Source: Phycisphaerae bacterium
Lineage (GTDB): Bacteria > Planctomycetota > Phycisphaerae > UBA1845
Length of the DNA stretch: 64,000 nt
NCBI GenBank assembly: GCA_029260165.1
Contig: JAJDDT010000073.1
Location: 1 to 64,000, forward strand
Direction: 5' to 3'
The position numbers were made by a program, and so were the translations under genes. This document shows, one piece after another, positions 7,889-39,027 of the stretch (the stretch's first letter is position 1; the number at the start of each line of letters is the position of its first letter). The notes beneath the pieces were generated by a model. That model did not search any database, had not been told where the DNA came from, and worked only from the letters and a program-made list of their open reading frames with translations.

Positions 7889-10800
7889 CTATTTGCGTAA
7901 CGACGTCGGCGACTCGCTGCCGCGAACACGCACCGCCCCGGACACCTCAACCGTCAACACCGGCGACGTCGGCTCCACAACCACACCCCCCGCACCGTGA
8001 AACTCCGTACGACCACCCGACAAACCGATCGCAAACACGCCCGACGCATCCGGCGATACCTCATAAACGACCGTACCAAGATACGACGACCGACCGAACC
8101 AGCCTCCGTCAAAACCCACGCCGCCAACGCGACCCGATCCGCGAACGTCAGCCAGCCCAAAACCCATCGTCCCACCAAAAAGCCAGTCGCGACGAGACTC
8201 GTCAACAAAAGCATCGACCAGCTTCAAACCGCCCGAATTCCCGCCCAGAACATCCAGACCAAGCTCGAAACCGCGAACAAACACGTTACCCGAACCAGAC
8301 ACATCCACCGTCACGCGACCACCCGGCAACACACGACCCTCGCGAACCGAAAAATCAAGCGACACAACCGCAGAATCACCCGCCGCCGCAGACGGTCCCG
8401 CACAGGGATCAACAGGAATACAATCGACCCCCTCACCCACAAACGTCCCGGGAGCAGGACACGTCGCCGATGTCGCGATAACGCAGGGATCACCCACAAC
8501 ACAACACGCACCACCGCCGCAGGGCGTCGCACACGGATAGTCCGGATCACCAAACGCCACCACAACCGCCAGAATATCCGACGTCTGAATGAATCCGTCA
8601 GGCTCACAGGGAACAAGATCATTCAACAAACGATTACCACACTGGGGTTCAAAGTCCCCGCCAAACGCCATCACCACACAAAGAATGTCATCCGTCTGCA
8701 CAAACCCGTCACCCGTGATATCACCCCAGCGAAACGTCTCAAGCGTCGACGCCAACGACCGGTTTGAACCACACTCCGACTGAACACTGTACAGACTGTT
8801 CGGAATCACATCACGATCCGATACCACCACCGTACCCCACGCATCCGCCGTCATGAACACCGGCACATCGCCCAGACTCCCGTCCGCCTGGATATAAACA
8901 GACAAACACGGAAAATCAGAACTCGTCACCAACAGGGACTGCAACTGCGAAGAACCCGCAGGACCGGGCGTTACCTCGAAATAACGAACCCCCGTCGCAA
9001 CAGCCACGGGCACCTCCGGAACAAACGTCCCCTGGCAAACACCCAGCGTGCAGACGTCCGCTGTCGTACACACATCAAGATCATCACAAACAAGCCCCTC
9101 AGGCTCAAAATTCACCAGGCAACTACCACCACCATCGCAACTGTCCGGATTATCACAATCCGTGTCACTACCATTACCACAAAAAGCCCCAATCAATGTA
9201 AAGTTCTGCAAACAAACACCCGACCCGTCACAGGTATCCGCCCCATCACAATCCGTGTCCAACGGATCACCACAGGGAAAGCCCGATACCTCGTCTCGGG
9301 GCGAGCAGGCACCAAACCCATCGCACGAATCCGGATTGTCGCATTCACGATCCGTCGGATCACCACAAACCAACCCATTCGATTCAAAATTGGGCAGGCA
9401 GAGACCACTCCCGTCACACGAATCTGGATTGTCACAAACGGTGTCTCCAGGACTACCACACGTCGTGCCAAACGTCTCGAAATTGTTCAGACAAACACCC
9501 GATCCATCACACGAATCCGGATTGTTGCAGTCATCGTTCGTTATATCTCCACACGTCGTCCCGTTAGGCTCCAGGTTGTCCAGACAGGTTCCACCACCGT
9601 TGCATGTGTCCGGGTTGTCACATTCGCTGTCCGCCGGATCACCACACCCAAACCCGACAAGCTCCAGATTGTCCAGACAAATACCAGCCCCGTCACAGGT
9701 GTCCGGATTGTCACAATCCGTGTCCAGCGGATCACCACAATTCAAACCGACAAGCTCGAAATTCGGCAGGCACGTTCCCGATCCATCACACGAATCCGGA
9801 TCGTCACAATCCGTGTCAGCCGGACTGCCGCACGCAAATCCCGTTGATTCAAAATTCGTCAGACACCCACCCGCACCATTGCATGTGTCCGGGTTGTCAC
9901 AACCCGTGTCCGCCTGACTGCCACACCCCAACCCCACAGGCTCGAAATTCGACGAACACAAACCCGTACCGGTACAGGTGTCCGGATTGTCGCATTCCGA
10001 ATCGCCCGGAAGACCACAGGTTGTCCCCATCGCCTCATTATTCGCCAAACACAACCCCACACCGTCGCAGGTGTCCGGATTGTCACACTCCGAGTTCGCA
10101 GGACTACCGCACATGAACCCAACCGATTCAAAATTGTCCAGACACGCACCCACTCCGTCACAGGTGTCCGGGTTGTCACAACCCGTGTCCGCCTGACTGC
10201 CGCACGCCAACGCCACGGGCTCAAAATTGGTCAGACACACACCAGCCCCATCGCAGGTATCCGGATTGTCGCAATCCGTATCACCCGGATCACCACACGC
10301 AAACCCAACCAGTTCCAGATTGACCTGACAAAACCCAAGCCCGGTGCATGTGTCAGGATTGTCGCAATCCGTGTCCGTTGGATCACCACACATCGCCCCC
10401 GCAGGCTTGTGATTAGGCTCACAAACGCCCATTCCATTACACGAGTCCGGACTGTCACACTGAACATCATCCGGAACACCACTCCCGCACGCCGTCCCCT
10501 TCCCGCGAGGCGACCAGTCAACCGCGCCCGGCGACATCGCGCAAGCCTCACACTCGTTGGCAGGGTTCACCGCCCCCACCGCAAAACAGGTACCACCAAT
10601 CAGACAGGTGTCCTGCCGCGTAATGTTCACCAGTGCATTACCCGTCGCACCATTAAAACCGGCAATCCGAATGAAGTAATCCTCACCCGCCACCACCGCA
10701 ATCGTCGCCGCCGACGCCAACCCCGGACCACCATCGTCGTCACACGCAAGCTCAACGCCGCCACACGCACCAAACACCGTCATGACCGTGTCAAACTCAC

Positions 10801-13273: not shown

Positions 13274-13279
13274 GATCAC

Positions 13280-24422: not shown

Positions 24423-24438
24423 GGGATAGAGGTTGACG

Positions 24439-26166
24439 ATGGCGGCGGGAACGAAATCGTTATCGATCGGTGAGCTGTTCGTTGAGAACGAAGTTGTCAC
24501 GAAGGCTCAACTGGAGGAGGCGCTGAGCGCGCAGTCCTCTTTGGGTCTTCCTCTGGGCGAGACACTGATTCGCCTTGGGATGGCGACGCCTTCGCAGGTT
24601 TTCCCGATTTTGCAGTCGCAGATGAACGTGCCCTGGGCGGACCTGTCGGAGGGTCTTGTGGATTCGCGCGTGGTGTCACTGATTCCGCGTGAGAAGGCGG
24701 AGCGGTACGGGGTTCTGTCGTTGTTTCGGGTGGAAGAGTCGCTGACGGTGGCGATGCACGATCCGCGTGCGATTTTCGTGATTGATGAGTTGGAGCAGAT
24801 CACGGGGTTGCGCGTGTTTCCGGTGCTGGTGTCGCAGACGGATGTTCGTCAGGCGATCAATCGTTACTACGCGGAGACGGCTGGGGACGAGGTGGAGGAT
24901 CGGTCGGACTCGGCGGAGACGTCGGCTGGTGGTGACAGTGCGGGGGCATTTCTGACGGAGACTGATGAGGGTGAGGGTGAGCAGGAGGCAAGTCCGGTCG
25001 TTCAACTGGTGAACGTGATGATGTCCAACGCGGTGAAAGAGGGTGCGAGTGATATTCATGTGGAGCCTGGGCGGACGCACACGAGCATTCGGTTTCGGAT
25101 AGATGGTGAGCTTCGTGAGGTGATGACGCCGAAGCTTTCGATGCACAAGTCGCTGATATCGCGTTTGAAGGTGATGACGAAGATGGACATCGGTGAGCAG
25201 CGTCGTCCGCAGGATGGTCGGATGATGGTGTGTGTGGAGGGTCGCAACATTGATGTTCGTGCGGCGAGTATGCCGACGTCGCGGGGTGAGAAGCTGGCGT
25301 TGCGTATTCTTGATCGTGACAACCTGAAGCTGGATTTGAAGACGCTGGGGATGCGTGCCCACCTGATCAGGCAGATTGAGACGATATTGGCGCGTCCGAA
25401 CGGAATGATATTGGCGACGGGTCCGACGGGATCGGGCAAGACGACGACGTTGTACTGTTTGTTGAACATGTTGCGTGGTGTGGAGCGGAACATCGTCAGC
25501 ATCGAGGATCCTGTGGAGTATGAGCTGGAGCTGGTGAATCAGGTTCAGTTGAATGAGGCGGCGGGATTGACCTTTCCGTCGGCGTTGCGGTCGTTTTTGC
25601 GGCAGGACCCTGATTTTATCATGGTGGGCGAGATTCGGGACACGGAGACGGCGACGGTGGCGGTTCAGGCAGCTCTGACGGGTCATCTTGTTTTGAGCAC
25701 GCTGCACACGAACAGTGCGGTGAGCACGGTGGCGAGGCTTATCAATGTTGGGGTTGATCCGTCGATGACGAGTGCGGCGATGACGGCGGTGATTGCTCAG
25801 CGACTGATTCGAACGAACTGCGCGAAGTGTGCGGAGCCTGACCTGCCGTCCGATGAGTTGTTGGCGACTTGTGGTATGGAGGCGTCTGATCGTGCGGGGA
25901 TGATGCGTGGTGCGGGTTGTCCGCAGTGTTTTGGGAGCGGGTTTCGCGGTCGGTGTGCGGTGCACGAGATTCTGGTTTTCGATGAATCGTTGCGTCGGGC
26001 GGTGAACGAGCGGGCTGATGTCACGACACTGTCGCATCTGGCGAAGAAGTCGGGGATGGTGAGCATGTTTGAGGGGGGTAAGGAACTGGTGCGTACGGGT
26101 CGGACGAGTTTGCAGGAGCTGGTGTCTGTGGTTGGTGTTGAGGCTTTGGTTGAGGAGAAGGGATGA
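24439..26166 (+). CDS. pilB: Type IV pilus / type II secretion assembly ATPase (PilB/GspE)
   Basis: The product is 575 residues. ATG 24439 follows AGGGGATAGAGG. The N-terminal MshEN-type domain (residues ~5-150; IGELFVENEVVTKAQLEEAL, WADLSEGLVDSRVVSLIP) is a possible cyclic di-GMP site, of interest given the GGDEF gene nearby. The secretion-ATPase core has Walker A (GPTGSGKTTT near 327), an Asp box, Walker B (IMVGEIRDTETA near 395) and a His box (ALTGHLVLSTLHTN). The zinc tetracysteine is CAKC (~460) and CPQC (~494). It powers pilin extension at the inner membrane. It is followed with 4-bp overlap by PilT. Confidence 0.93.
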   Translation: MAAGTKSLSIGELFVENEVVTKAQLEEALSAQSSLGLPLGETLIRLGMATPSQVFPILQSQMNVPWADLSEGLVDSRVVSLIPREKAERYGVLSLFRVEESLTVAMHDPRAIFVIDELEQITGLRVFPVLVSQTDVRQAINRYYAETAGDEVEDRSDSAETSAGGDSAGAFLTETDEGEGEQEASPVVQLVNVMMSNAVKEGASDIHVEPGRTHTSIRFRIDGELREVMTPKLSMHKSLISRLKVMTKMDIGEQRRPQDGRMMVCVEGRNIDVRAASMPTSRGEKLALRILDRDNLKLDLKTLGMRAHLIRQIETILARPNGMILATGPTGSGKTTTLYCLLNMLRGVERNIVSIEDPVEYELELVNQVQLNEAAGLTFPSALRSFLRQDPDFIMVGEIRDTETATVAVQAALTGHLVLSTLHTNSAVSTVARLINVGVDPSMTSAAMTAVIAQRLIRTNCAKCAEPDLPSDELLATCGMEASDRAGMMRGAGCPQCFGSGFRGRCAVHEILVFDESLRRAVNERADVTTLSHLAKKSGMVSMFEGGKELVRTGRTSLQELVSVVGVEALVEEKG

Positions 26167-27230
26167 GCGTGTCTGCGGTGGAGATATTGAGGCGTGCGAA
26201 GGACTGTGGTGCGTCGGACGTTGTGCTGATTGCGGATGCTCCGCCGTTCATGCGTCTGGAGGGTGAATGGCGACCTGTTGTCGAGGGGGTTCCGGGGGCG
26301 GATGGGTGCGAGGAGATGATACGGTCGCTGCTGCCGGAACAGTGGCGTGATAATCTGGAGCGTGGTCGGGAGTTGAATTTTTCCCGTCAGCTTCGGGGAC
26401 TGGGGCGATTGCGTTTCAATGTTCATCATCAGCGTGGGACATTGGCTGCGACGATTCGGCTGATCTGGCCTGAGATTCGGACGATGGAGGAGATCGGTCT
26501 TCCGGAGGCGGTGGGGTCTCTGGCCTTGAAGAAGCACGGTCTGATGCTGGTCTGTGGTCGTGCGGGTGCGGGGAAATCGACGACGCTGGCTGCGGTGGTG
26601 CATCACGTTCTGCGGAATCGTCGTGCGCATGTGATCACAATTGAGGATCCGATCGAGTATGTGCATGGAAACGGGATCGGGATTTGCGAGCAGCGTGAGA
26701 TTGAGTCTGACACGCCGAGTTGGCGGGATGGTTTGAAGAATGTTCTGCGTCAGTCGCCTGATGTGATTGTGATCGGTGAGTTGCAGGACAAGGAGAGTAT
26801 TGCGACGGCGGTGACGGCTGCGGAGACGGGTCACCTTGTGCTGGCGAGTGTTCACGCTCAGGACACGATTCGTTGTGTGACGCGTATGATTGATGTTTTC
26901 GGATCGGGTCAGCAGGATCAGATTCGGCTGCAACTGTCGGGGACGCTGCTGGGTGTGTTGGCTCAGGAGCTGGTGCCGACGGTGGGTGGGGATGGTCGCG
27001 TGTTGGCGACGGAACTGCTGGTCGCGAACACGGCGATTCGCAATCTGATTCGTCATGCGGAATACGCACAGATGGGGAATGCGATGCCGGCGGGTCGTAA
27101 CATCGGGATGCACACGATGCAGGATTCTCTGGATAAGCTGTTGTCGCGGGGTCTGATCTCGCAGGAGGAAGTGATCAGCCGGCTGAATGATTGTCGGATG
27201 GCGGGTTCGAAGCAGTTTGCGGGTGTTTAG
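26163..27230 (+). CDS. pilT: Pilus retraction ATPase (PilT family)
   Basis: The product is 355 residues. The N-terminal PAS-like domain (~1-100) has the PilT opening (ASDVVLIADAPPFMRLEGEW). Walker A is GRAGAGKSTT (~132-141), the Asp box IEDPIEYVH, Walker B VIVIGELQDKESI, and the His box ETGHLVLASVHA. It lacks the Cys zinc motif, as PilT does, and is shorter than PilB. Compared with PilT consensus, Walker B has LQD in place of the usual MRD. It likely depolymerises pili, implying twitching or DNA uptake rather than a pure type II secretion system. The start overlaps the pilB stop (ATGA). Confidence 0.88.
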   Translation: MSVSAVEILRRAKDCGASDVVLIADAPPFMRLEGEWRPVVEGVPGADGCEEMIRSLLPEQWRDNLERGRELNFSRQLRGLGRLRFNVHHQRGTLAATIRLIWPEIRTMEEIGLPEAVGSLALKKHGLMLVCGRAGAGKSTTLAAVVHHVLRNRRAHVITIEDPIEYVHGNGIGICEQREIESDTPSWRDGLKNVLRQSPDVIVIGELQDKESIATAVTAAETGHLVLASVHAQDTIRCVTRMIDVFGSGQQDQIRLQLSGTLLGVLAQELVPTVGGDGRVLATELLVANTAIRNLIRHAEYAQMGNAMPAGRNIGMHTMQDSLDKLLSRGLISQEEVISRLNDCRMAGSKQFAGV

Positions 27231-27257
27231 GTTTTGTGTGATTGACGGGGCAGTTTG

Positions 27258-28478
27258 ATGGCAACGATGGTTTACAAGGCGCGTGGGACGAACGGGAAGA
27301 TCGTTCGTGGGAAGATCGAGGCGAGTTCCGCACAGGAGGCGTTGACGCGACTGCGTCGCAGCGGGGTTCAGGTTCTTGCGATTGACAAACCTGGGCGGGT
27401 TTCGGGGCTTGTTGGTGCGCAGGCGCGGACGCTGGGTCGCAAGCGTGTGAAGATGCGTGAACTGCTGTGGACGTTATCGCAAATGCAGTTGATGGTTCGG
27501 GCGGGGACGAGTCTGGATGATGCGTTGAAGATTACGTCGGACTCGACGGACAATCCGACGCTGAAAGGCGTATTGGAGGACCTTCAGAATCGGGTGAATC
27601 AGGGTGAATCGTTGTCGGAGGCGCTTGCGGCTCATCCGGAGGTTTTTGATCCGATCGTGTCGCGGATTATTTCGGCGGGTGAGGCGAGCGGGACGTTGCC
27701 GAAGATGCTGGGGACGGTGCATGATCTTCTGGAGCGTTCGTATGAGACGCGGCGGATGATCATTGGGGCGTTGCTATATCCTGCGATTCTGGTTTCTGTG
27801 GCGGGGATTGCGCTTGCGGTCATGTTCATCTGGGTCCTTCCGAGGTTTGTGAAGGTCTTCAACGACGTTGGGGCTGAGCTTCCGGGTATTACGATCGCGG
27901 TGTTGGCGATCAGTGGGTTTCTCTCCAAATACAAGGTGGTGATTTTTCTGCTGGTTGCCGGTGGGCTGGTGATGGGTTGGCGGTTGCGGAAGAACGTTGA
28001 GGTGGTGTCGAAGGTGACGCGGTTTCTGATGGGGATTCCGGTTATCGGTCCGTTGATTCGGACGGCGAACACTGCGCGGGCGATGGAGTTGATGGGGACG
28101 CTTTGGCGTGCGGGTCTGCCGATAACGGAGGTGACGCGGTTGACGGGTGCGACGATGCGGAACCCTTTGTACGAAGCGTTTTTCAAGGATCTGCGTCAGC
28201 AACTGGTGGATGGGAAGCCTTTGACGTCGGTTTTTCTGGGATGCGATTTGTTTCCCAAATCGGTGGCACCGCTTATCCGGACCGGTGAAACGACCGGTAA
28301 CACGCCTGAGGTTCTGCAATCTCTTGCGCAGTTTCACGATAAGGAAACGCGCGAGCATATCAAGACGATGATTTCATTACTGGAACCAGCGATCATTGTG
28401 GTGATGGCTGGTGCGGTGGGTGTCATCGCCCTTTCGGTGGTGCTTCCACTGTTTCGGTTGTCGAGTGCGGTTCATTGA
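27258..28478 (+). CDS. pilC: Inner-membrane platform protein (PilC/GspF)
   Basis: The product is 406 residues, the usual size. The N-terminus (MVYKARGTNGKIVRGKIEAS) and two T2SSF domains (~70-190 and ~270-395), each with a conserved helical bundle and membrane segments (GALLYPAILVSVAGIALAVM, VIFLLVAGGLVMGW, IIVVMAGAVGVIALSVVLP), are as in PilC. It connects the PilB/PilT motors with the pilin. ATG 27258 was chosen over TTG 27255. It lies 27 bp after pilT in the same operon. Confidence 0.92.
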   Translation: MATMVYKARGTNGKIVRGKIEASSAQEALTRLRRSGVQVLAIDKPGRVSGLVGAQARTLGRKRVKMRELLWTLSQMQLMVRAGTSLDDALKITSDSTDNPTLKGVLEDLQNRVNQGESLSEALAAHPEVFDPIVSRIISAGEASGTLPKMLGTVHDLLERSYETRRMIIGALLYPAILVSVAGIALAVMFIWVLPRFVKVFNDVGAELPGITIAVLAISGFLSKYKVVIFLLVAGGLVMGWRLRKNVEVVSKVTRFLMGIPVIGPLIRTANTARAMELMGTLWRAGLPITEVTRLTGATMRNPLYEAFFKDLRQQLVDGKPLTSVFLGCDLFPKSVAPLIRTGETTGNTPEVLQSLAQFHDKETREHIKTMISLLEPAIIVVMAGAVGVIALSVVLPLFRLSSAVH

Positions 28479-28502: not shown

Positions 28503-29567
28503 TTGGGAAGCTACTCGCCTATCGGTATTGATATTGGTACGGCTGACATCAAGCTGGTTCAGCTGGTTCGCGAAAAGGGAACGTGGGTTCCGTTTGCGCT
28601 GGGTCTGCAATTGTGGAGTGCGCGTTCGACTGATGACGTGCAGTTCGATGATTGTTTTACGGCGGCGTTGCGGGCTGCTTTTGAGGGCGGGGGTTTCAAG
28701 GGGAAGCGTGCGATTGTGAGTGCTCCGGCGTGTCTGGTGGACATCTGGCCTGTCAAGGTTCCGCTGAGTGAGGGGGTGGATGTTGCGTCGTTTGTTCAGT
28801 CGGAGATTGCCGAGCGGCGTGGTCAACTGACCTCTGATTTTGTCGTGGATTACTGGATCGGCGGGGACACGGTTGAGCATGGTGAATCGAAGATCGAGGC
28901 GTACGCGGTGTCGGCGTCGCATGAGAAGGTTGTTTCGATGGTCCGTGCGGTAGAGAAGGCGGGGATCTGCTGCACGCGTGTTGAGGTGGCGGCCACGTCG
29001 CTGGCGCACTGTGTTGAGCTTGCGGATGAGGAGCCTTTGTTGCTGTTGGATATCGGTGATCGTTCGTCGATGCTGATGGCGATGGACAGTGTGGGGATCA
29101 CGTTTTGCCGTGAGATCAAGTGGGGTGGTCATCATGTCACGTCGCGATTGAAGACGGCTCTTGATATTGATATGGAGACGGCTGCCCAGATCAAGGAGGA
29201 GTGGGGAATTCGTCCGATTTCGGACGCGTCGGGAGCGGACAGTTCGTCGGCGCATCCACGTCAACAGGTGATCAACGATTCGATCGAGCAGGAGATTCGT
29301 GTGCTTGCTCTGGAGATTGGCCGGTCGCTTGCTTATCGCGCGCGCAGCAGTGGTGGTGGGGACAGCAAGGAACTGGCGCTCGTCGGCGGTGGTGCGCGGC
29401 TTCGTGGTCTTGATCGATTTTTGAAGGACGCGTTGAAACTGACGGTGAAATCGGCACCGATCATCTTCCGTGAAGGTCTGTCCAGAAAGACCGAGGATGA
29501 TGGTCTGAACGGTGGGGCTGAGCAGTTTGCCATTGCGACGGGGACGGCGATGACGGGGGTTAACTAA
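28503..29567 (+). CDS. pilM: Actin-like pilus assembly protein PilM
   Basis: The product is 354 residues with an actin/FtsA-like ATPase fold. Phosphate-1 motif GIDIGTADIKLVQLV is at residues 7-21, an inner ATP motif at LLLDIGDRSSMLMA (~180), and the C-terminal adenosine motif LALVGGGARLRGLDRFL (~300). It binds the N-terminal peptide of PilN on the cytoplasmic face. The start is a TTG (28503) after CAGGACGG, as no ATG fits. It is followed by pilN after 2 bp. The C-terminal end (FAIATGTAMTGVN) matches the family. Confidence 0.9.
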   Translation: MGSYSPIGIDIGTADIKLVQLVREKGTWVPFALGLQLWSARSTDDVQFDDCFTAALRAAFEGGGFKGKRAIVSAPACLVDIWPVKVPLSEGVDVASFVQSEIAERRGQLTSDFVVDYWIGGDTVEHGESKIEAYAVSASHEKVVSMVRAVEKAGICCTRVEVAATSLAHCVELADEEPLLLLDIGDRSSMLMAMDSVGITFCREIKWGGHHVTSRLKTALDIDMETAAQIKEEWGIRPISDASGADSSSAHPRQQVINDSIEQEIRVLALEIGRSLAYRARSSGGGDSKELALVGGGARLRGLDRFLKDALKLTVKSAPIIFREGLSRKTEDDGLNGGAEQFAIATGTAMTGVN

Positions 29568-29569
29568 CG

Positions 29570-30271
29570 GTGCAGCGGGTCAATTTACTACCGAAGGAGT
29601 TGCAGAGGCGTCGGTTTCTGATCGACCGGGCGCGATTGTGGGGAATCATCAGCGGGTCTGCTGTTTTGTGGTCGTTGGCGGCGAGCTGGACGCTTGGGTC
29701 GCGGGTGGAACGGCTTCAGGAGCTTATCGGGGCTGAAGAGCAGATGAGCGTTGCATTGTCGGAGGGACGATCGTCGGTTGAATCAATCAGGGTGCGACAG
29801 GGGCGGATTCGCGCGAGACATGATGTTCTTCTACAGGTTGTTGCACGGGCGGATTGGGGTGAGGTTATCGGCCAGGTGGCTGGCGCGGGGGGTGAAGAGG
29901 TCTGGATTCGCGAGTGCAGGATCGAGCGTACGCATCGGCCTGGGGGGTTGAGGAACGGACGTGCGGAGGGGTCGGAGGATGAACCCACGCGGCTTGAGGT
30001 TTCGGGGTATGCGCTATCGAACGCCGAGCTTTCGCGTTTTTTGTCGCGGTTGGGGAGGTGTCGTCGGGTGACGAGTGTTGAGCCGAACAACGTGAATCAG
30101 GAACCGGTGGGCAGGGGGCACCTTGTTGCGTTCAACGTGACGTGCGTGGTTGGTTCTCGAGAGGTTGATCAGGATGCGAGCGTGATGATGGAGCGTGGTT
30201 CGGACGAGACTGTGGCGGGCCGTCCTGATGTTTTCACGATGAACGTGGTCCGGACGGTGAGGCAGCCATGA
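29570..30271 (+). CDS. pilN: Pilus assembly protein PilN-like
   Basis: The product is 233 residues. The N-terminus MQRVNLLPKELQRRR is the PilM-binding peptide of PilN (consensus INLLP). One membrane helix follows (~25-45, GIISGSAVLWSLAASWTLG), then a periplasmic coiled coil and a C-terminal ferredoxin-like domain (RLEVSGYALSNAELSRFLSR). It forms the inner-membrane alignment complex with PilM and PilO. The start is GTG 29570, two bases after the pilM stop, so the genes are translationally coupled. The last ~40 residues are extra relative to shorter PilN proteins. Confidence 0.85.
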   Translation: MQRVNLLPKELQRRRFLIDRARLWGIISGSAVLWSLAASWTLGSRVERLQELIGAEEQMSVALSEGRSSVESIRVRQGRIRARHDVLLQVVARADWGEVIGQVAGAGGEEVWIRECRIERTHRPGGLRNGRAEGSEDEPTRLEVSGYALSNAELSRFLSRLGRCRRVTSVEPNNVNQEPVGRGHLVAFNVTCVVGSREVDQDASVMMERGSDETVAGRPDVFTMNVVRTVRQP

Positions 30272-30858
30272 ATCTTTCGCGAGCACGTTTTCTGCGGTAC
30301 ACGGATGGTGATATTGCTTTCGCACTGGTGTTGTGCCTTGGTTTGGGGATCGCCGTCTGGCAGTGGCATGCACCCAGGGTTCTGCAGATCCGCGTGTTGG
30401 GAGACCGTCTTGCTGAACAGACGCGCGTGCACAAGGAGTTGGAACAGATGCGGGGGGTGATTGCACATGCGCGTGCGAGTGCGACGCTTCTGGAGACGCG
30501 GCTGACCGGATTCGAGACGGAGGTGCTTGCGACGGCCGGGGTGGCTGGTCGTCTTGAGCAGTTGTCTGAACTGCAGGATGAATGTTCTGTTGATCTTGAC
30601 TCTGTTTCGCCGGGTCGTGAGGAATCGAACGAATGGTATTCGGCGGTGCCGATGAACATTGTTGCGACGGGGACACTGGAAGAGGCGTTGTGTTTTGTGG
30701 ACCGAATTGAGGAGAGCATGGTGGCTGCGGAGATGACGTCGTTGCGTTTTTTCGCGGACATGGAGAACGAGGATTTATCTGTTTCCATTGAGCTTCGGGT
30801 TTTGACGGACGTTGTGGATCGGGCGGATGGAGAGGATTCCGGCAACTCCGGCGTGTGA
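30268..30858 (+). CDS. pilO: Pilus assembly protein PilO-like
   Basis: The product is 196 residues. A short cytoplasmic start (MNLSRARFLRYTDGD) leads into one membrane helix (IAFALVLCLGLGIAVWQW, ~16-33), a coiled coil (~45-95) and a C-terminal domain with the strand pattern of PilO (VPMNIVATGTLEEALCFVDR). It is assigned by place and architecture; sequence identity to known PilO is low. It overlaps pilN by 4 bp. The partner of PilN in the periplasmic alignment complex. Confidence 0.75.
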   Translation: MNLSRARFLRYTDGDIAFALVLCLGLGIAVWQWHAPRVLQIRVLGDRLAEQTRVHKELEQMRGVIAHARASATLLETRLTGFETEVLATAGVAGRLEQLSELQDECSVDLDSVSPGREESNEWYSAVPMNIVATGTLEEALCFVDRIEESMVAAEMTSLRFFADMENEDLSVSIELRVLTDVVDRADGEDSGNSGV

Positions 30859-30871
30859 TGGTCGTACGGTC

Positions 30872-31627
30872 ATGATGACGAGCAGGCGACAAATGATTGT
30901 GGTGGGTATCCTGGGGGTGATTCTCGTGGGGCTGGCGATCCGTCAGTTTCGGGACACGCCTGGTGCGCCATCTTCCGCGGGTGCTGTTGAGATCGTGGAA
31001 GCGGTCGTGAATCCAAGCGCGGCGGCGCGGGAATCCATTGATGGTATTGCGGACCTTGCTGCGGCTGACGATTGGCGGATACCGTCGGTGGACTCGTTGC
31101 GTGCGCGCCTTTCGGGTGATCGTGCCCGCCCGTCGAACAACCCGTTTGTTCTGTCGAAGACGTTGCGTGCGGTTGTTGACGGGGTTCGCAAGCCTGAACC
31201 GGGTGAACCTAGTGTGGATTTTGAGTTGGCCATGGAGCAGTGGGTACCGGAATTTCAGATACGCAGCGCCTATGAGATTCTCGGGCAGTGGTTTGTGGAA
31301 ATCAACGGGCAGGTTCACAGCGTTGGGGATGTTGTTGAGGGATCGCGGATCCTTGCGATCAGTTCGCGGAGTGTGCGTTTGTCGCGGGTGATTGTGGAGG
31401 ATGGGGAAGCGCCTGTCGTGGATCCCAGACCGACGAGTGTGGTGTTGACGTGTGGACAGAGTTCGGGGCTGGTTGGTGAGCGCTGGGTTCGTTCGGGTGA
31501 CCGGGCGGACGGGTCGCGTGTGGTGCGTGTTGGTGTGGACGGTGTTGTGGTTGAACGCATTGATGGGGATGACGATGGGGATGGACAGTCTGACCGGGGT
31601 GTCGAGGTACGGGTGGAAAATGATTGA
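30872..31627 (+). CDS. PilP/GspC-like inner-membrane protein
   Basis: The product is 251 residues from ATG 30872; the frame is open earlier but the first Met pair precedes the membrane helix (QMIVVGILGVILVGLAIRQF, ~6-26). A Pro/Ala-rich linker leads to RPSNNPFVLSKTL (~86-98), the N-P-F motif before the homology-region domain of PilP/GspC proteins, and a beta domain (AYEILGQWFVEINGQVHSVG, GSRILAISSRSVRLSR). The tail is Asp-rich (DGDDDGDGQSDRG), a calcium-loop-like string. It would link the platform to a secretin; no secretin gene is present in this window. Confidence 0.65.
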   Translation: MMTSRRQMIVVGILGVILVGLAIRQFRDTPGAPSSAGAVEIVEAVVNPSAAARESIDGIADLAAADDWRIPSVDSLRARLSGDRARPSNNPFVLSKTLRAVVDGVRKPEPGEPSVDFELAMEQWVPEFQIRSAYEILGQWFVEINGQVHSVGDVVEGSRILAISSRSVRLSRVIVEDGEAPVVDPRPTSVVLTCGQSSGLVGERWVRSGDRADGSRVVRVGVDGVVVERIDGDDDGDGQSDRGVEVRVEND

Positions 31628-32162
31628 TGTGACGGTTGAAAAACGATGTGGGTTGCGAGCGTTCACGTTGATGGAGGTGATCGCCGTCGTGATCGTTCTG
31701 GGTATTCTTGCGTTGGTTGCGTTGCCGTCTGTGGGCAATGTGACGACGACGACGGGTGAGCGGAGCGTTCGGAGCAACGTGGCGTCTTTGCGGAATTCGC
31801 TCGAGTTGTATGCGAATCAGCACAACGGGGTCTACCCGTCTGGTGCGACGGACGGGACGAATGCGCTGGGGAGCGAGGGGGCGTTTGTGAGTCAGTTGAC
31901 GCAGTATTCCAACGCGGCGGGGGTGATTTCGTCATCGAAGAGTGCGTCGTTTCCGTATGGGCCTTATTTGAAGTTTGGTGTACCGAGCGTGACGGCGGGT
32001 CCTGTGAATGGAAACAGCGGGGTGTCGGTGACAAGTTCGGCTTCGGCGATTGCAGCGGACGGGTCACCGACGAAGGGGTGGAAATACAGTTACGTTACGG
32101 GGCAGATCATTTGTAATTCGTCAGCAACGGATTCGGGTGGTGTCGCACTTTCGTCCTATTGA
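31620..32162 (+). CDS. Type IV pilin-like protein (major pseudopilin, GspG-like)
   Basis: The product is 180 residues from ATG 31620, which overlaps the previous stop. The prepilin site is RA|FTLMEVIAVVIVLGILAL, with Glu5 kept but Ala in place of Gly at -1. The mature N-terminal helix runs ~14-40. The globular part has SLRNSLELYANQHNGVYPSG and the C-terminal GWKYSYVTGQIICN, similar in place to GspG-type pilins. It is probably the main fibre subunit. It is followed immediately by a second pilin (32167). Confidence 0.8.
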   Translation: MIDVTVEKRCGLRAFTLMEVIAVVIVLGILALVALPSVGNVTTTTGERSVRSNVASLRNSLELYANQHNGVYPSGATDGTNALGSEGAFVSQLTQYSNAAGVISSSKSASFPYGPYLKFGVPSVTAGPVNGNSGVSVTSSASAIAADGSPTKGWKYSYVTGQIICNSSATDSGGVALSSY

Positions 32163-32166
32163 AACG

Positions 32167-32652
32167 ATGAGACGTCGGGGATTTACACTTCTCGAAATGA
32201 TCACGGTTCTGGTGGTCATGGGGATTGTGTTGGCTGTCGCGCTTCCGGAGATGGATGCGTCGGGGCGGACGTATCTGTTGCAGTCCGGGGCGAACAAGGT
32301 GATGGCTGCGTTGCAGTCGGCGCAGGCGGAGGCGATTTCGACGGGGGTCAGTCATGGTGTGACGTTTTCGCCGACGGACAATACGCTGACGTGTTTTACG
32401 GTGACGGGTTCTCCGCCTTATCCGACGATCAATCATCCTGTTAAAAAGACGCCCTATCTCGTGGATTTTGATACGGCACCGGGGATGGGTGGTGTCGCGA
32501 TTGCGTCGACGGGTTTTCCCTCGGATCAGGTCATTTTTGACTCGATGGGTTCCCCGGACAGTGGTGGAACGGTGACGGTGTCGCTGGGTGTGTTTCAGCG
32601 TAACGTCGTGGTAGCGGCGATTTCGGGGGTGATGGAGTTTAAGGATCCATGA
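32167..32652 (+). CDS. Pseudopilin, GspH/FimT-like
   Basis: The product is 161 residues. The N-terminus MRRRG|FTLLEMITVLVVMG is a canonical short prepilin leader with Gly(-1) and Glu(5). The helix continues into a GspH-type domain (LLQSGANKVMAALQSAQAEA, VTFSPTDNTLTCF, FDSMGSPDSGGTVTVS), a beta sandwich as in FimT/GspH. It probably caps the fibre tip as a minor pilin. Four bases separate it from the previous stop, and it overlaps the next gene by 4 bp. Confidence 0.82.
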   Translation: MRRRGFTLLEMITVLVVMGIVLAVALPEMDASGRTYLLQSGANKVMAALQSAQAEAISTGVSHGVTFSPTDNTLTCFTVTGSPPYPTINHPVKKTPYLVDFDTAPGMGGVAIASTGFPSDQVIFDSMGSPDSGGTVTVSLGVFQRNVVVAAISGVMEFKDP

Positions 32653-33029
32653 CACGCATGGTTCGACATCGGGGTTTGAGTTTGATCGATGCGGTCATCA
32701 CGCTGGTGGTGCTTGGGGCGGTGACGACGCCGATTGCGGCGGGGATCGTGTCACTCTCCAGGGGGGCTTTGCAGAATTATCGTGAGGCGGCGATTCGCGG
32801 TGAGTTGGTTTATGAGGCTGAGCGATTGTTTGCGTTGCCGTTCAGCAGTTTGTCGGTCGGGACGACGAATACGTCGGTCGCGTTGCCGGGTGGAACGGAG
32901 ACGCTGTCGGTCGTGGTCAGTCTCGATGATTACGATGGTGACGCGTCGAATGACGCGGAGTTTATGAAGGTTGTCGTATCGCTGGATGGTCGGGAGATCA
33001 CGTTTTTTCGGAGTGACTGGAAGCAATGA
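32649..33029 (+). CDS. Pseudopilin, GspI/PilV-like
   Basis: The product is 126 residues. The prepilin motif is RHRG|LSLIDAVITLVVLGAV: Gly(-1) is kept, but Phe1 is Leu and Glu5 is Asp, a conservative replacement of the residue needed for methylation and assembly. The small domain has EAERLFALPFSSLSVGTTN. The order H, I, K-like in the operon matches minor pseudopilins that form a tip complex. It overlaps both neighbours by 4 bp. Confidence 0.72.
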   Translation: MTRMVRHRGLSLIDAVITLVVLGAVTTPIAAGIVSLSRGALQNYREAAIRGELVYEAERLFALPFSSLSVGTTNTSVALPGGTETLSVVVSLDDYDGDASNDAEFMKVVVSLDGREITFFRSDWKQ

Positions 33030-33388
33030 TGACCCGCGGGCGGACCATTCGACGGCGTGCGACGATGAGCATTGTGATCATCATTCTGGCGATATCAGCC
33101 ACGGCGATGATTACGGGGACGCTGGCGATGACGACGGGTGCGACGACGGTTCAGCGGCGGGCGTTGATGCGCGAGCAGGCGACGTTTCTGGCGGATGCGG
33201 GGTTGGCGAGGGCGATCATCATGCTGAAGAACAACACGTCGTGGCGTGTCGGCTATTCGTCGGTGAGCCTGGGATCGGGAACGTATACGGTGACGCTGAC
33301 GGATGTCGGGGTGTTTGTTGATGTTGTGTCGACGGGCGCGGTCGGGGTGATCAGCGTTGAGACCTCGGCGCGACTGGCCTGGGAATAA
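33026..33388 (+). CDS. PilX/GspK-like minor pilin
   Basis: The product is 120 residues. It begins MMTRGRTIRRRATMSIVIII, a basic leader directly before the hydrophobic helix (MSIVIIILAISATAMITGTL) without a Gly-Phe cleavage site, as in many PilX or GspK-like proteins with divergent motifs. The next helix includes ALMREQATFLADAGLARAII, typical of PilX N-terminal domains (A-x-x-L-A-D-A-G). A short beta domain follows. It is the last gene before the operon is interrupted by an oppositely oriented gene. Confidence 0.65.
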   Translation: MMTRGRTIRRRATMSIVIIILAISATAMITGTLAMTTGATTVQRRALMREQATFLADAGLARAIIMLKNNTSWRVGYSSVSLGSGTYTVTLTDVGVFVDVVSTGAVGVISVETSARLAWE

Positions 33389-33422
33389 GGCGACGCCGTT
33401 GTCGGGCCTGCTGCCCTTTCGA

Positions 33423-36400
33423 TCAATTCTGATCTATCTGACTCATTCTGTTTTTGTCCTTGACGGGCCGGCTGAATCCCGGAGCGTCTCGTACCTGACG
33501 GATTCTGACTTTTCGGTTTGTGGATCGTTTGTTGCCGTGTCGTTTCATGACGAGTTTTCCGACACCGGCTTCGTCGATGGTCAGCATCTGTGCGATGGTG
33601 GTCGCCCCGATGGTTGTTGAAGCGTTTTGTGGGACGACGGAATAGGTTTTTGCGCCACCGTTCCAGTAGACCTTCACTGTGTAGGTCGTCGAAGGGGTGA
33701 CGCCTCCGAAGTGCAGCCACATGGGTTCGGTTCCGCCGAAACCGCGTGCCACGCCGACATCGCGCCGGGCAAGCAGCACAGAACCGGAGGAATCCAGGAG
33801 GTCAACGCGGACACCGTTGGCGGACATGGGTGTGTTTCCACTTCCCCCACCGATGATTCTGACTTTCAGGTAGTTACCGTTGTTGAGGTTGTTGCGAAGA
33901 ATCGTGTTGGTGGCGTCCTCCTGTGTGATGGAGATGTCGAGGTCGCCGTCGTTGTCGTAATCGACGAAGACGCAGTCGTGGGCGTCGCCGGGTGCGTCAG
34001 CGCCGACACTTGCGACACTGAATTTGGTCATGGCGTCGTTGTGGTACAGGACGTTGTTGTTTCCGGCTCGGGTGACGATGTAGAGGTCCAGATAGCCGTC
34101 GTTGTCGTAGTCGCCCCAACATCCACTGCGAACTCCGGAGGTATTGTTTATCAGGACCAGACTTGCGATGTTGGTGAATGATCCCGCATCGTTTTTCCAC
34201 ATGTAGGCCAGTTGCCCGGAGTCGTACCGCCCGGCGAACAAGTCGAGATCGCCGTCGTTGTCGACATCAGCCCATGACGAGCCCATTTTGTCGTTGTTGC
34301 CGGTGACCACCGAGATGTTGCTGCTGTTTTCGGTGTAGGTTCCGTCGCCGTCGGAGAGGAACAGTTTTCCGGTTCCGTAGTGGGAGAAGAAATCGAGGTA
34401 TCCGTCGTTGTTGATGTCGCCGGAGCTTGCGAAGTCGCCGTTGCCGTAGTCGCCGCTGTCGTTGAGTCCGTAGGATGAGGCGTTGGTTGGGGTGACCGTG
34501 GGTGGTGTTGTGCCGTCGTGGTGCCCTATCCAGTTTTTGGTGTTTCCCGAGAACATAACGACGTCGGTCCAGCCATCCTTGTTGACGTCGCCGAGGACGA
34601 TGTTTTCATTGTTGGTGGGTCCGCTGAATCCGAGATGTCCGCCGGCGGTGAAGGAGGCGGCCCCGTTGTTTTCAAAATACTGTTGCGCCGTGCTATACCC
34701 TCCGGCGCTGGCGGCCCAGAAGTCGAGATCGCCGTCGTGGTCGAAATCGGCCAATGCGCCCTGTCGCCCCATGCTGCCGCTCATGAACGTTGAGGAGGTG
34801 AATCCTCCTGCGCCGTTGTTGATGAGGAGTTTCGCGGTGCTGCCCGTAAAGATGGCGTCGAGGTCGCCGTCGTTGTCGAGGTCACCCCAGTGGGCGGCTG
34901 ATCCGCTGTGATAGCTGTTGGTCGTCTGCTGTGCAAAACCGGTGCAAACGGAAACGTCGGTGAATCCTGATGCCCCCGTGGCCAGGGTGGTGATGTTGTC
35001 GGCGGTCAGCGCGAAGTTGTAGACGCGAACGTCGTCGAGCAGGCCGTGGAACCGGTCGGCGGTTGTTCGGCCACCGATATACAGGGCCTGATTGCTGGTG
35101 GTGAGCGGGCTGGTGAAGGTGTCGGGGAGGGTGTTGTCCGGAACGCCGTTGACGTAAATCCGCACGTCGGTTCCGTCCCATGTGGCTGCGACGTGATACC
35201 AGCGGTTGGTTTGGAGGGTTGTGTTTCCGGGGTGTCCGGTGTCTGAATCGTCGTCAGTGAGAAACAGGTTGAGTTTGCCGTTCTTGACGGCGAGGGCGTA
35301 GTCTTTGGGATCGGCGTCGCCCTTTCGGGCAATGGTGTCCACGTCTGCGGCGCTTCCCCATGAGGTGCCGCTGATCCATGCGGTGATGCTGATTGCGGCG
35401 GTGATTTTGAGGCTGGCGGCGTCCGGGACGGCGACGTAATCGTCGGTGCCGTCAAAGGAAAGCCCGCCATTGGTGATGCCGCATATTCGCGTCGGATCCG
35501 TTGATTGGACGGACGAGGAGCTGCCCAGTGTGCCGTTGTTGCCTTTTCCCGACGAGTCGGAAACGGTTTGTCCGCTCGTCGCGTCGAATTTGTACTGCGC
35601 GACCGGCGACATGTCAGGCTCGGTGAGCGTGACCATTTGTGAAATCGTCGTCGATCCAATTGTTGTCGTCGCGTTTTGCGGGACGACGGAATAGGTTTTT
35701 GTTCCGCTGTTCCAGTAAACCTTCACCGTGTATGTCGTCGAGGGCGTGACGCCTCCGAAGTGCAGCCAGATCGGTTCAGCTCCTCCAAAACCGCGTGCCA
35801 CACCCACATCGCGACGGGCGAGCAGCGTGTTTCCGTCAGCCGTCAACAAATCAACGCGCGTACCAACAGCGGAAACGGGCGTTCCGCCGCTTCCCGATCC
35901 GATAACGCGGACCTTGAGATATTGCGTGTTGTTGAGGTCATTGACCAATAGCGTGTTGTTTGAATCCTCCTGCGTTACCGAAAGATCAAGATCACCATCG
36001 TTGTCATAGTCGACAAAAACGCAATCATGCCCGTCACCCCTGGCTTCGGCGTCTGCAGAAACCGAGGAAAATGTTCCGTTGCCATTGTTCCTAAACAGGA
36101 TATTGTCATTGTCGCCCTGAGTGACACAATACAAGTCCAGGTCGCCGTCGTTGTCATAATCCCCCCAGCAACCGCTGCGAACGCCAGTTGCTGAATTGAG
36201 TCCGGCTGCTGACGCCACATTTGTGAAGGAACCCAGCGTGTTCTGCCATAAATACACGCGCTGCCCACTGTCGTATCGGCCCGCGAACAGGTCCAAGTCC
36301 CCGTCGTTGTCGTAGTCGGCCCACGAGGAACCGATTTTGTCGTCATTGCCCGTTACAATGGAAATATTACCGCTGTTTTCAGTGTATGTGCCGTCACCGT

Positions 36401-37112
36401 CGGACAAGAACAACTTTCCAGTCCCATAGTGATAAAAGAAATCCGGATACCCGTCTCCATTGACATCGCCCGAGCTCGCATAATCACCGTTTCCGTAATC
36501 GCCGCTGTCATTAAGCCCATACGAAGACGCACTGGTTCCTGAATAAGTTGGTGGGGTCGTACCGTTGTGATGCCCAATCCAGTTTCCGTTACCGGAAAAC
36601 ATGACGATATCCAGCCACCCATCCTTGTTGACATCCCCAAGTGCAAGTCCTTCGTTATTGCTCGGCCCCCCGAATCCGAGATTGCCGGCGCTTGCGAACG
36701 ACCCGGAACCATTGTTTTCCAGGAGGGTTGCGGTGTCGTAGCTCCCGGTACCGGATATCCAACAATCCAGGTCACCGTCATGATCAAAGTCTGCCAAGCC
36801 CACCTGCCGACGCACGTCCCCGTTGTAGAGGGTCGAATCGTTGAGATTGCCAGAACCATCGTTGATGAAAATCTTCGCGGAATTGCCCGTCACAATCGCA
36901 TCAACATCGCCGTCATTGTCGAAATCACCCCAATGCGCGGAGGCTCCTCGATGTACGCTGTTGGTCGTTTCTTCGCCAAAGCCGGAACTCCCGGATTCGT
37001 CGTCGAATTCAGGTGATTGCCCGAATGCGCATGTTGCACCGGGAATCACGCCTACACAATTGAGAATAATTCCCAACATCGTCAGACCGATAACGTGCCT
37101 TCCGATTCTCAT
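33423..37112 (-). CDS. Large FG-GAP/VCBS and LamG protein with ASPIC-type modules
   Basis: The product is 1,229 residues from ATG 37112, where a signal peptide begins (MRIGRHVIGLTMLGIILNCV, cleavage after CAFGQ). It has two homologous halves (~40-500 and ~720-1,190) of FG-GAP/VCBS repeats with calcium loops (WGDFDNDGDVDAIVTG, FVDYDNDGDLDLSV), each ending in an ASPIC/UnbV-like module (RRDVGVARGFGG, WLHFGGVTPSTTYTVKVYW). Between them is a LamG/concanavalin domain (~500-720; SLSFDGTDDYVAVPDAASL, WYHVAATWDGTDVRIYVNG). The C-terminal 40 residues are basic with no anchor. It lies antisense between pilus genes. It is probably a secreted calcium-dependent adhesin and may be functionally comparable to PilY1; that role is inferred from location only. 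Confidence 0.8.
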   Translation of the reverse strand: MRIGRHVIGLTMLGIILNCVGVIPGATCAFGQSPEFDDESGSSGFGEETTNSVHRGASAHWGDFDNDGDVDAIVTGNSAKIFINDGSGNLNDSTLYNGDVRRQVGLADFDHDGDLDCWISGTGSYDTATLLENNGSGSFASAGNLGFGGPSNNEGLALGDVNKDGWLDIVMFSGNGNWIGHHNGTTPPTYSGTSASSYGLNDSGDYGNGDYASSGDVNGDGYPDFFYHYGTGKLFLSDGDGTYTENSGNISIVTGNDDKIGSSWADYDNDGDLDLFAGRYDSGQRVYLWQNTLGSFTNVASAAGLNSATGVRSGCWGDYDNDGDLDLYCVTQGDNDNILFRNNGNGTFSSVSADAEARGDGHDCVFVDYDNDGDLDLSVTQEDSNNTLLVNDLNNTQYLKVRVIGSGSGGTPVSAVGTRVDLLTADGNTLLARRDVGVARGFGGAEPIWLHFGGVTPSTTYTVKVYWNSGTKTYSVVPQNATTTIGSTTISQMVTLTEPDMSPVAQYKFDATSGQTVSDSSGKGNNGTLGSSSSVQSTDPTRICGITNGGLSFDGTDDYVAVPDAASLKITAAISITAWISGTSWGSAADVDTIARKGDADPKDYALAVKNGKLNLFLTDDDSDTGHPGNTTLQTNRWYHVAATWDGTDVRIYVNGVPDNTLPDTFTSPLTTSNQALYIGGRTTADRFHGLLDDVRVYNFALTADNITTLATGASGFTDVSVCTGFAQQTTNSYHSGSAAHWGDLDNDGDLDAIFTGSTAKLLINNGAGGFTSSTFMSGSMGRQGALADFDHDGDLDFWAASAGGYSTAQQYFENNGAASFTAGGHLGFSGPTNNENIVLGDVNKDGWTDVVMFSGNTKNWIGHHDGTTPPTVTPTNASSYGLNDSGDYGNGDFASSGDINNDGYLDFFSHYGTGKLFLSDGDGTYTENSSNISVVTGNNDKMGSSWADVDNDGDLDLFAGRYDSGQLAYMWKNDAGSFTNIASLVLINNTSGVRSGCWGDYDNDGYLDLYIVTRAGNNNVLYHNDAMTKFSVASVGADAPGDAHDCVFVDYDNDGDLDISITQEDATNTILRNNLNNGNYLKVRIIGGGSGNTPMSANGVRVDLLDSSGSVLLARRDVGVARGFGGTEPMWLHFGGVTPSTTYTVKVYWNGGAKTYSVVPQNASTTIGATTIAQMLTIDEAGVGKLVMKRHGNKRSTNRKVRIRQVRDAPGFSRPVKDKNRMSQIDQN

Positions 37113-37267
37113 CTTTTTGTCGCTTTCAAAATCGATCGCTGAATGTGAAAAGGGTTGCTGCCGATACGACAAACGTAAGATATGTTTGGGATACGAGCGG
37201 CTTGAATCGCGGGTTCGCATTATCCGGACCACAGGATCAACGCATTATTCGGAATTGGCCGAAAATC

Positions 37268-38044
37268 GTGCACTTCAAGAAGAATACCAACCGCCAGACC
37301 GGTTTCACGCTGGTTGAGGTGATTGCGGCGAGCGTTGTCATGGCTGCGATTTCGCTCGTTTCGTCGACGCTGCTGGTCTCGGTGCTTCGGACGCGGGAGG
37401 CGGTTGTTGCCCAGCATGAGATGGACCGACAGGCGGCGATCGCGCTGATGCGGATCGAGGAGCACACGCGTGAGACGGCGGCCATCTACATTCCCAATGG
37501 TCACGACACGACACGTCCGATATTGGCGATCGGGTATCGCTTCGATGATGACAACGACGGTCTTTTCGATGAGGACGCGGCGGGGGCGGCGGATGCGGAT
37601 CACGGGGTGGCGGGTTTTGATGACGACGGTGACGGGGTGGTGGATGAGGGGAATGTGGCTGACGACGATGAGGATGGCGCGATTGACGAGGATCCCGTGG
37701 ATGGGACCGATAACGACGGTGACGGTCTGATCGACGAGGATTTCGGGGCTGATATGGATGGTACCGGCGGTAATGACGATGATTCTGATGGCAGTACGAA
37801 CGAGGACGGTGCTGAGGCCATCATCTATTTTCTTGATGGTACGAATCTGATGGAATGGCATCCGGATTTTGGTGAAAACGTTGTGGCACGGAATGTGACG
37901 AGCTTCGCGGTGACGTACGAACCTGCGGCGTCATTGGGTTCGCCTGCGGTGACCGTGCAGATCCAGATGCTGTCGTACACGGGTGACACGCGGACCTATC
38001 GGACGCGGATCGCCTCTCGGAATTCCGGTTTGTATGGTTCCTGA
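37268..38044 (+). CDS. GspJ/PilW-like pseudopilin with Asp-rich calcium-type insert
   Basis: The product is 258 residues from GTG 37268; an earlier GTG at 37145 would add 41 residues. The prepilin site is RQTG|FTLVEVIAASVVMAAISL. The helix and first globular part (IALMRIEEHTRETAAIYIPN) are ordinary, but about residues 93-180 hold five DxDxDGxxDE-type strings (DDDNDGLFDED, DDDGDGVVDEG, DDDEDGAIDED, DNDGDGLIDED, DDDSDGSTNED), like tandem calcium loops. The end (VTSFAVTYEP, RTYRTRIASRN) is GspJ-like. The pilus operon resumes here after the antisense gene. No clear ribosome site was found for either start. Confidence 0.75.
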   Translation: MHFKKNTNRQTGFTLVEVIAASVVMAAISLVSSTLLVSVLRTREAVVAQHEMDRQAAIALMRIEEHTRETAAIYIPNGHDTTRPILAIGYRFDDDNDGLFDEDAAGAADADHGVAGFDDDGDGVVDEGNVADDDEDGAIDEDPVDGTDNDGDGLIDEDFGADMDGTGGNDDDSDGSTNEDGAEAIIYFLDGTNLMEWHPDFGENVVARNVTSFAVTYEPAASLGSPAVTVQIQMLSYTGDTRTYRTRIASRNSGLYGS

Positions 38045-38094: not shown

Positions 38095-39027
38095 TTGTCC
38101 AGCGAACTTCGACAACGAATTTTGAATGTTGAGTCATTGCCGAGTCCTCCTGCGTTGGTGGCGGAGTTATTGGATCTGACGTCTCGCGAGGATGTTCGGA
38201 TATCCGAGATCGCGTCGTTGATTGAACGCGACCCTGCGCTGTCTGCGAAGTTGTTGAAGCTTTGCAACTCGGCTGCGTTCGGTGTGCGTCATGAGATCAG
38301 TTCGCTTGACCGGGCGATGGTGATGCTGGGGATTCGGCAGGTGAAGTCGTTTGCGCTCGGTTTCCTGGTTTTGAACGCGAAGGAGATGCAGGAATCGGAT
38401 TGTTTCGACTTTTCGCATTTCTGGAAGCGTGCGTCTGTGACGGCGGTCAGTGCGCGGGCGTTGGCGAAATATGCTGCTCCGAATCTGGGGGGTGAGGCGT
38501 TTGCGTGCGGTCTGATGCTCGATATCGGTAGGATATTGTTGCAGCATCTGGTGCCTGAGGTCTACCGAACCATTCTATCGAAGCAGGAGGAGTCGAGGCG
38601 GAAACTGTACGAGGTCGAGCGCGAGGTTCTCGAGCTGGATCATATGGAGGCTGGCCGAACCCTGCTGGAGCACTGGGGATTGCCGTCGATTATCTGCGAG
38701 ACGGTCGGTGTGCATCACTGCCCGCAGACGTACGAAGGGGACGCGGTTGGTCAGGATTTTCTTGAGATTGTGGCGGCGGCTGGGGAGATCGCGGCGTTGT
38801 TTTGCGATGCGCAGAAATCCGAGAGTCTCGATCGGGTGTTGCAGATCTGCTCGGGATACTTCCGCATGGCTGAGGAACAGGCGCATGAGATGCTCAAGCA
38901 GATCGGTGATGACGCGCGCGAGACGGCGTGGTTGTTTGAGTTGAAGGGGGCGGACGCACTGGACTACGATCGCATACGATCCGACGTGGAGAAGGAACTG
39001 GCTTCTGCGACGGATGCCGGCGCGTAG
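38095..39027 (+). CDS. HDOD-domain signalling protein
   Basis: The product is 310 residues. The start is TTG 38095 after CACGGAGGCTGATC. The HDOD domain spans ~10-210 (LPSPPALVAELLDLTSRED, IERDPALSAKLLKLCNSAAF, SLDRAMVMLGIRQVKSFALG, ACGLMLDIGRILL). HDOD proteins lack the catalytic residues of HD phosphohydrolases and often act in pilus, chemotaxis or cyclic di-GMP signalling. The C-terminal ~100 residues are helical. It lies 50 bp after the pseudopilin in the same direction, and so is probably part of the pilus regulon. Confidence 0.85.
   Translation: MSSELRQRILNVESLPSPPALVAELLDLTSREDVRISEIASLIERDPALSAKLLKLCNSAAFGVRHEISSLDRAMVMLGIRQVKSFALGFLVLNAKEMQESDCFDFSHFWKRASVTAVSARALAKYAAPNLGGEAFACGLMLDIGRILLQHLVPEVYRTILSKQEESRRKLYEVEREVLELDHMEAGRTLLEHWGLPSIICETVGVHHCPQTYEGDAVGQDFLEIVAAAGEIAALFCDAQKSESLDRVLQICSGYFRMAEEQAHEMLKQIGDDARETAWLFELKGADALDYDRIRSDVEKELASATDAGA

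Follow-up and report, generated by a model that had tools for sequence, protein, structure and literature searches.

An FG-GAP/ASPIC Protein Encoded Antisense within a Planctomycete Type IV Pilus Operon: a Candidate Pilus Partner with a Constant C Terminus and a Variable N Terminus

Results

The stretch of DNA analyzed here (the window; positions 1 to 64,000 of contig JAJDDT010000073.1 of a Phycisphaerae bacterium) carries a type IV pilus operon on its plus strand, in the midst of which, on the minus strand, lies the gene of a large secreted protein built of FG-GAP, ASPIC, and laminin G (LamG) domains. We put at about even the chance that this is a modular surface protein that the pilus has recruited as a partner and that would most likely serve as an adhesin at or near its tip. 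The reading is favored by an exact co-distribution of adhesin and operon, a conserved nesting, a shared C-terminal tail, and variable N termini, one of which, in genome G020, is a domain (DUF7305) that in this order occurs mostly on pilus open reading frames (ORFs).

The operon runs from pilB through pilT-like, pilC, pilM, and pilN/O/P-like genes to GspG-, GspH-, PilV-, and PilX-like pilins and resumes, beyond the interval that holds the nested gene, with a PilW/GspJ-like pilin and an HDOD-domain gene. PilB, PilC, PilM, GspG, and GspH are supported by Pfam and NCBIfam, as is the N-methylation motif of PilW; the pilN/O/P and pilV/X/W names are taken from position and sequence style. The features are as follows.

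24433-26166, plus: pilB (NCBIfam type_IV_pilB, E 4.5e-166)
26163-27230, plus: pilT-like (gene order, sequence style)
27255-28478, plus: pilC/gspF (NCBIfam GspF, E 8.4e-90)
28503-29567, plus: pilM (NCBIfam pilM, E 6.7e-23; Pfam PilM_2)
29570-30271, plus: pilN-like (gene order, sequence style)
30268-30858, plus: pilO-like (gene order, sequence style)
30812-31627, plus: pilP-like (position, sequence style)
31656-32162, plus: GspG-like pilin (NCBIfam/Pfam)
32050-32652, plus: GspH-like pilin (NCBIfam/Pfam)
32649-33029, plus: PilV-like pilin (position, sequence style)
33026-33388, plus: PilX-like short minor pilin, 120 aa, directly upstream of the nested gene
33389-33422: convergent gap, pilX/3' end of nested gene, 34 bp
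33423-37112, minus: nested secreted protein, FG-GAP/ASPIC-LamG-FG-GAP/ASPIC (ORF, Pfam, motif scan)
33423-33569, minus: basic C-terminal tail, ending DQN or similar, common to the four operon-bearing genomes
33570-34910, minus: C-terminal seven-loop FG-GAP propeller and ASPIC-like region, constant in all orthologues
34992-35453, minus: Laminin_G_3 (concanavalin A-like lectin) domain (Pfam; PDB matches 4qvs, 5hon)
35673-36965, minus: N-terminal seven-loop FG-GAP propeller and ASPIC, duplicate of the C-terminal module (Pfam, motifs 63-368, tree)
37113-37267: divergent intergenic region, nested gene/pilW, 155 bp
37268-38044, plus: PilW/GspJ-like minor pilin (Pfam N_methyl; alignment)
38095-39027, plus: HDOD-domain gene, closing the conserved block (Pfam HDOD, E 8.6e-54)

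The PilX-like pilin has no Pfam match, and its orthologues in three genomes are 53-75% identical. The PilW-like pilin contains an acidic stretch, at about 37541-37810, in which 38 of 90 residues are acidic and none is basic and which includes four calcium loops of the form Dx[DN]xDGxxD. Elsewhere in the window, two large ORFs, at 7889-13279 (1796 aa, minus) and 4172-6712 (846 aa, plus), have no Pfam match at 1e-3.

The nested gene lies in the interval 33389-37267, between the stop of the pilX-like gene (33388) and the GTG start of the pilW-like gene (37268). The full minus-strand ORF covers 33423-37232 (1269 aa from a GTG at 37232), and a sequence that by eye resembles a signal peptide (MRIGRHVIGLTMLGIILNCVGVIPGATCAFGQ) opens at the ATG at 37112, which is therefore the likely start and gives a product of 1229 aa. 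The ORF, the Pfam matches, and the gene calls agree with an earlier note on this DNA, which had described a 1,229-residue FG-GAP/LamG/ASPIC protein on the opposite strand between pilin genes. Pfam recognizes FG-GAP_3 in 12 stretches (E 2.7e-68), UnbV_ASPIC (E 1e-8), and Laminin_G_3 (E 1.5e-29, residues 594-747 of the 1269-aa ORF), and the succession of FG-GAP blades and UnbV_ASPIC is that of the secreted FG-GAP/ASPIC family. There are 14 copies of the motif Dx[DN]xDGxxD, whereas 1000 shuffles of the same composition contained 0.04 on average and never more than 2. The copies form two groups of seven (63-368 and 744-1051), which indicates a pair of seven-loop propellers flanking the LamG domain. 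The protein is acidic overall (pI 4.3), with a basic C-terminal tail. It does not open with the class III signal peptide and pilin helix of a modular type IV pilin: there is no N_methyl match, and its N terminus reads, by eye, as an ordinary Sec signal. A match to the TafC fimbrial family (NCBIfam) was not used, since it covers the LamG region only and scores 55 against a cut-off of 410. An AlphaFold model of the C-terminal module, made from an alignment of 4 sequences only, was poor (pLDDT 51).

The FG-GAP/ASPIC block has been duplicated within the gene, at an offset of 2049 nt. In a phylogenetic tree the two halves are sisters (support 93/87), and the duplication therefore arose in the lineage of the window after its split from genome G001; a fusion of two unrelated genes is rejected on the same grounds. 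Although sisters, the halves differ in GC3, which is 0.61 for 35595-37001 and 0.73 for 33426-34943.

Among 51 genomes of the family, the PilW of this operon is found in exactly four, and an orthologue of the adhesin (E <= 1e-100) is found in the same four and in no other.

G000: the window genome
G001: same genus as the window, contig JANQQK010000018.1, Phycisphaerae IP29b_bin.25
G014: contig JAJRYY010000181.1, Dive96_bin4.107
G020: contig JABFSN010000046.1, WB-IL-13

Because some PilM is present in 57 of 60 relatives, the absences concern this particular operon and not pili in general. The order pilP-like/GspG/GspH/PilV is kept in G001, G014, and G020, and the HDOD gene adjoins pilW in G001 and G014 but not in G020. 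The adhesin is nested at the same junction and in the same orientation in three of the four carriers (G000, G001, and G014), which represent two genera. In G020, almost nothing separates pilX from pilW, and the adhesin is encoded on a separate contig, among pheS/pheT-like and methionyl-tRNA-synthetase-like genes (named by eye); nesting is thus not required. None of the window genes tested from outside the pilB-HDOD block was found in the flanks examined in the relatives, the same-genus G001 included, so that the persistence of the nesting across an rpoB identity of 83% is notable. According to the earlier note, an operon uninterrupted in most relatives, or a gene located elsewhere in them, would speak against its reading. 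The outcome is mixed: most relatives lack the operon altogether and one carrier in four has it uninserted; a location elsewhere holds for G020 and for homologues in another family, and does not hold for G001 and G014. A separate, random insertion is disfavored by these results, since the same four genomes carry operon and adhesin, three of them with the gene nested, while the outside neighbors are not conserved.

It should be recognized that the carriers are closely related. Co-occurrence reaches 4e-6 in a naive exact test, but the rpoB tree places the four, together with G030 and G021, both of which lack operon and adhesin, in a single clade of six, and the operon label needs just two changes. 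The co-distribution does not, therefore, represent four independent events, and as evidence of a link it is no more than suggestive. In the tree of the adhesin, (G014,(G020,(G001,G000))), the clade of four is supported at 99/95; this tree favors an ancestral nesting that would have been followed by relocation in G020 over repeated insertion.

Comparison of the four proteins separates a constant from a variable part. The C-terminal seven-loop FG-GAP/ASPIC module is common to all four, as is a basic tail of 46-50 aa (pI 11-11.7), which the G020 protein bears even though its gene is unlinked from the operon. The N-terminal part consists of a second propeller and LamG in G000, an unclassified repeat region and LamG in G001, a right-handed beta-helix in G014, where LamG is missing, and DUF7305 in G020. 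Elsewhere in the order, DUF7305 is found mostly on ORFs with TadG- or PilX-like N termini (about two thirds of 29, by eye); at locus L032 (10410-11309) it is fused to a secreted FG-GAP protein. The last 12 nucleotides of the nested gene (GATCAGAATTGA, 33423-33434) are identical in G000, G001, and G014, at a protein identity of 54-65%, are tandemly duplicated in G014 (L033, 10260 and 10277), and are absent in G020. There is no other exact copy in the window, and an extended 16-mer has no near match elsewhere in eight genomes; a role as an insertion-site or mobile-element repeat was accordingly rejected, and the sequence is most simply read as the codons for DQN-stop.

Adhesin homologues at E <= 1e-100 are also present in 11 genomes of f8, another family of the order. 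They are not near pilin genes, and the f8 genomes lack this PilW, apart from a marginal match in G050. The tail is absent from the f8 homologues; those at L034, L036, L037, and L038 terminate instead in a short, basic motif, W-x-E-[VIL], which is shared by a second protein at L037 (12766-14844) and looks like a C-terminal sorting signal. These homologues, the location in G020, and the many FG-GAP paralogues of the window genome (45 FG-GAP/ASPIC-matching stretches) could mean that the operon acquired a general FG-GAP/LamG protein, secreted or at the cell surface, which was kept there by descent among close relatives, with no physical link to the pilus. We regard this as possible, though clearly less likely than the partnership. 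Against it stand the survival of the nesting beyond all other neighboring synteny tested, the exact co-distribution with the operon, and the presence of the tail in carriers and its absence in non-carriers; moreover, other FG-GAP proteins read from the genome have different C termini, in some cases IPTL-CTERM-like anchors (by eye).

The earlier note had proposed that the protein could be a planctomycete counterpart of PilY1. In PilY1 the C-terminal propeller is conserved and the N terminus is variable, and Dx[DN]xDGxxD is calcium motif 1 (PMC13190605). The nested protein has 14 copies of this motif, which is generic to FG-GAP repeats and so not diagnostic, and it is encoded with minor pilins (pilX/pilW) in three of four genomes, but on the opposite strand. 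The calcium loops, secretion, the propeller repeats, and the site among minor pilins would all suit a true, strongly diverged PilY1 homologue. However, hmmscan of the protein returned FG-GAP, ASPIC, and LamG, with strong scores for the first two, and not PF05567; among solved structures the propeller is nearest to cartilage acidic protein 1 (CRTAC1, PDB 9etn), an ASPIC/FG-GAP protein, with no PilY1 chain among the PDB matches at E <= 0.1; and f8 homologues occur without the operon. Membership in the PilY1 family is rejected on the Pfam and structural results, and common descent with PilY1 is considered highly improbable. (A genome-wide search with PF05567 was silent, as were its controls, and says nothing on the rest of the genome.) As a statement of homology the proposal thus fails, whereas the notion of a functional counterpart gains support from the nesting in three of four carriers, the co-distribution of gene and operon, and the PilY1-like pattern of constant C terminus and variable N terminus.

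The gene arrangement also raises the question of regulation. An opposite-strand gene lies between genes of one operon, a layout that fits the definition of a noncontiguous operon (PMC7154746), and the convergent gap has no terminator-like site in G000, G001, or G014, which is only permissive. The position may then be chiefly regulatory, irrespective of what the protein binds: the adhesin mRNA and a pilX-to-pilW read-through mRNA would down-regulate each other. Both this reciprocal control and a joint transcription of the operon genes across the antisense gene are predictions from the layout. That this is the main significance of the nesting appears quite unlikely, since G020 does without it and pilW may use its own promoter in the 155-bp divergent region. 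Promoters for the nested gene and for pilW could both lie in this region; no sigma-70 consensus match was found there, and promoter scans are uninformative in this phylum.

Discussion

As a partner of the pilus, the nested protein would dock on the minor-pilin complex through its constant C-terminal part, the basic tail perhaps lying against the acidic calcium-loop stretch of the PilW-like pilin, while the variable N-terminal part would bind the substrate, resulting in a PilY1-like layout assembled from unrelated parts. Because the gene runs against the operon with no recognizable terminator between, its transcript would be complementary to one that reads through from pilX to pilW, and in this way the expression of the adhesin and that of the pilus could be tuned reciprocally. 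Attachment to the pilus, location at the tip, and a function in adhesion are thus proposed from gene context and domain structure. Against this reading stand the small number of genomes (four, with two changes on the rpoB tree), the unlinked gene of G020, the f8 homologues away from pilin genes, the abundance of FG-GAP/ASPIC proteins in the window genome, and the lack of LamG in G014. The scheme in its entirety, an independently evolved PilY1 analogue in which an integrin-like FG-GAP/ASPIC propeller is docked by its basic tail on the acidic calcium-loop PilW, carries interchangeable N-terminal tip modules, and belongs to a noncontiguous operon as its antisense member, is judged unlikely.

A related calcium-loop PilW is also found in Gammaproteobacteria (L098-L101) and in other Planctomycetota (L128 and L129). 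At L098, a gammaproteobacterial metagenome-assembled genome that also has an HDOD-like gene nearby, and at L128 and L129, from two other planctomycete families, the PilX-like protein neighboring PilW is 1169-1531 aa long and has Laminin_G_3; the PilX of L099 (Methylomonas) is short (331 aa). A lectin-type extension therefore recurs at this locus, and in the window a separate protein would supply such a module. LamG being a widespread domain, the comparison is supportive only.

If the proposed partnership is right, another propeller family can take over the role of tip adhesin and keep the design of constant C terminus and variable N terminus. The proposal singles out the tail as a candidate docking element and PilW as its candidate partner, and G001 or G014 versus G020 provides a natural pair with and without nesting. 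Planctomycete pili are little studied; among the papers searched, few join planctomycetes, type IV pili, and minor pilins, and none brings FG-GAP into connection with such pili and pilins.

Among known systems, the PilY1/PilC adhesins of type IVa pilus tips, which prime pilus assembly and mediate adhesion, resemble the nested protein in being large secreted proteins encoded among minor pilins, with a conserved C-terminal propeller containing Dx[DN]xDGxxD loops and a variable N-terminal domain; they differ in that the nested protein lacks PF05567, has an FG-GAP/ASPIC propeller, has LamG and a duplicate propeller in place of vWA, and is encoded antisense. Modular tip pilins, such as PilC of S. 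sanguinis, a minor pilin with a concanavalin A-like lectin module (PMC9934059), and the PilX-LamG giants of L098, L128, and L129, likewise have a lectin-type module at the pilX position, but in the window the module is part of a separate secreted protein without a pilin N terminus and the adjacent PilX is 120 aa. CRTAC1 and the bacterial FG-GAP/ASPIC proteins share the domain family of both propeller blocks; the nested gene differs from them in its pilus-operon context, its basic tail, and its swapped N-terminal modules. In the noncontiguous operon of S. aureus (menE-menC-MW1733-ytkD-MW1731), one gene likewise runs against an operon in its middle; the window differs in that the genes are those of a pilus, that nesting is not universal, and that the noncontiguous operon is here a predicted one.
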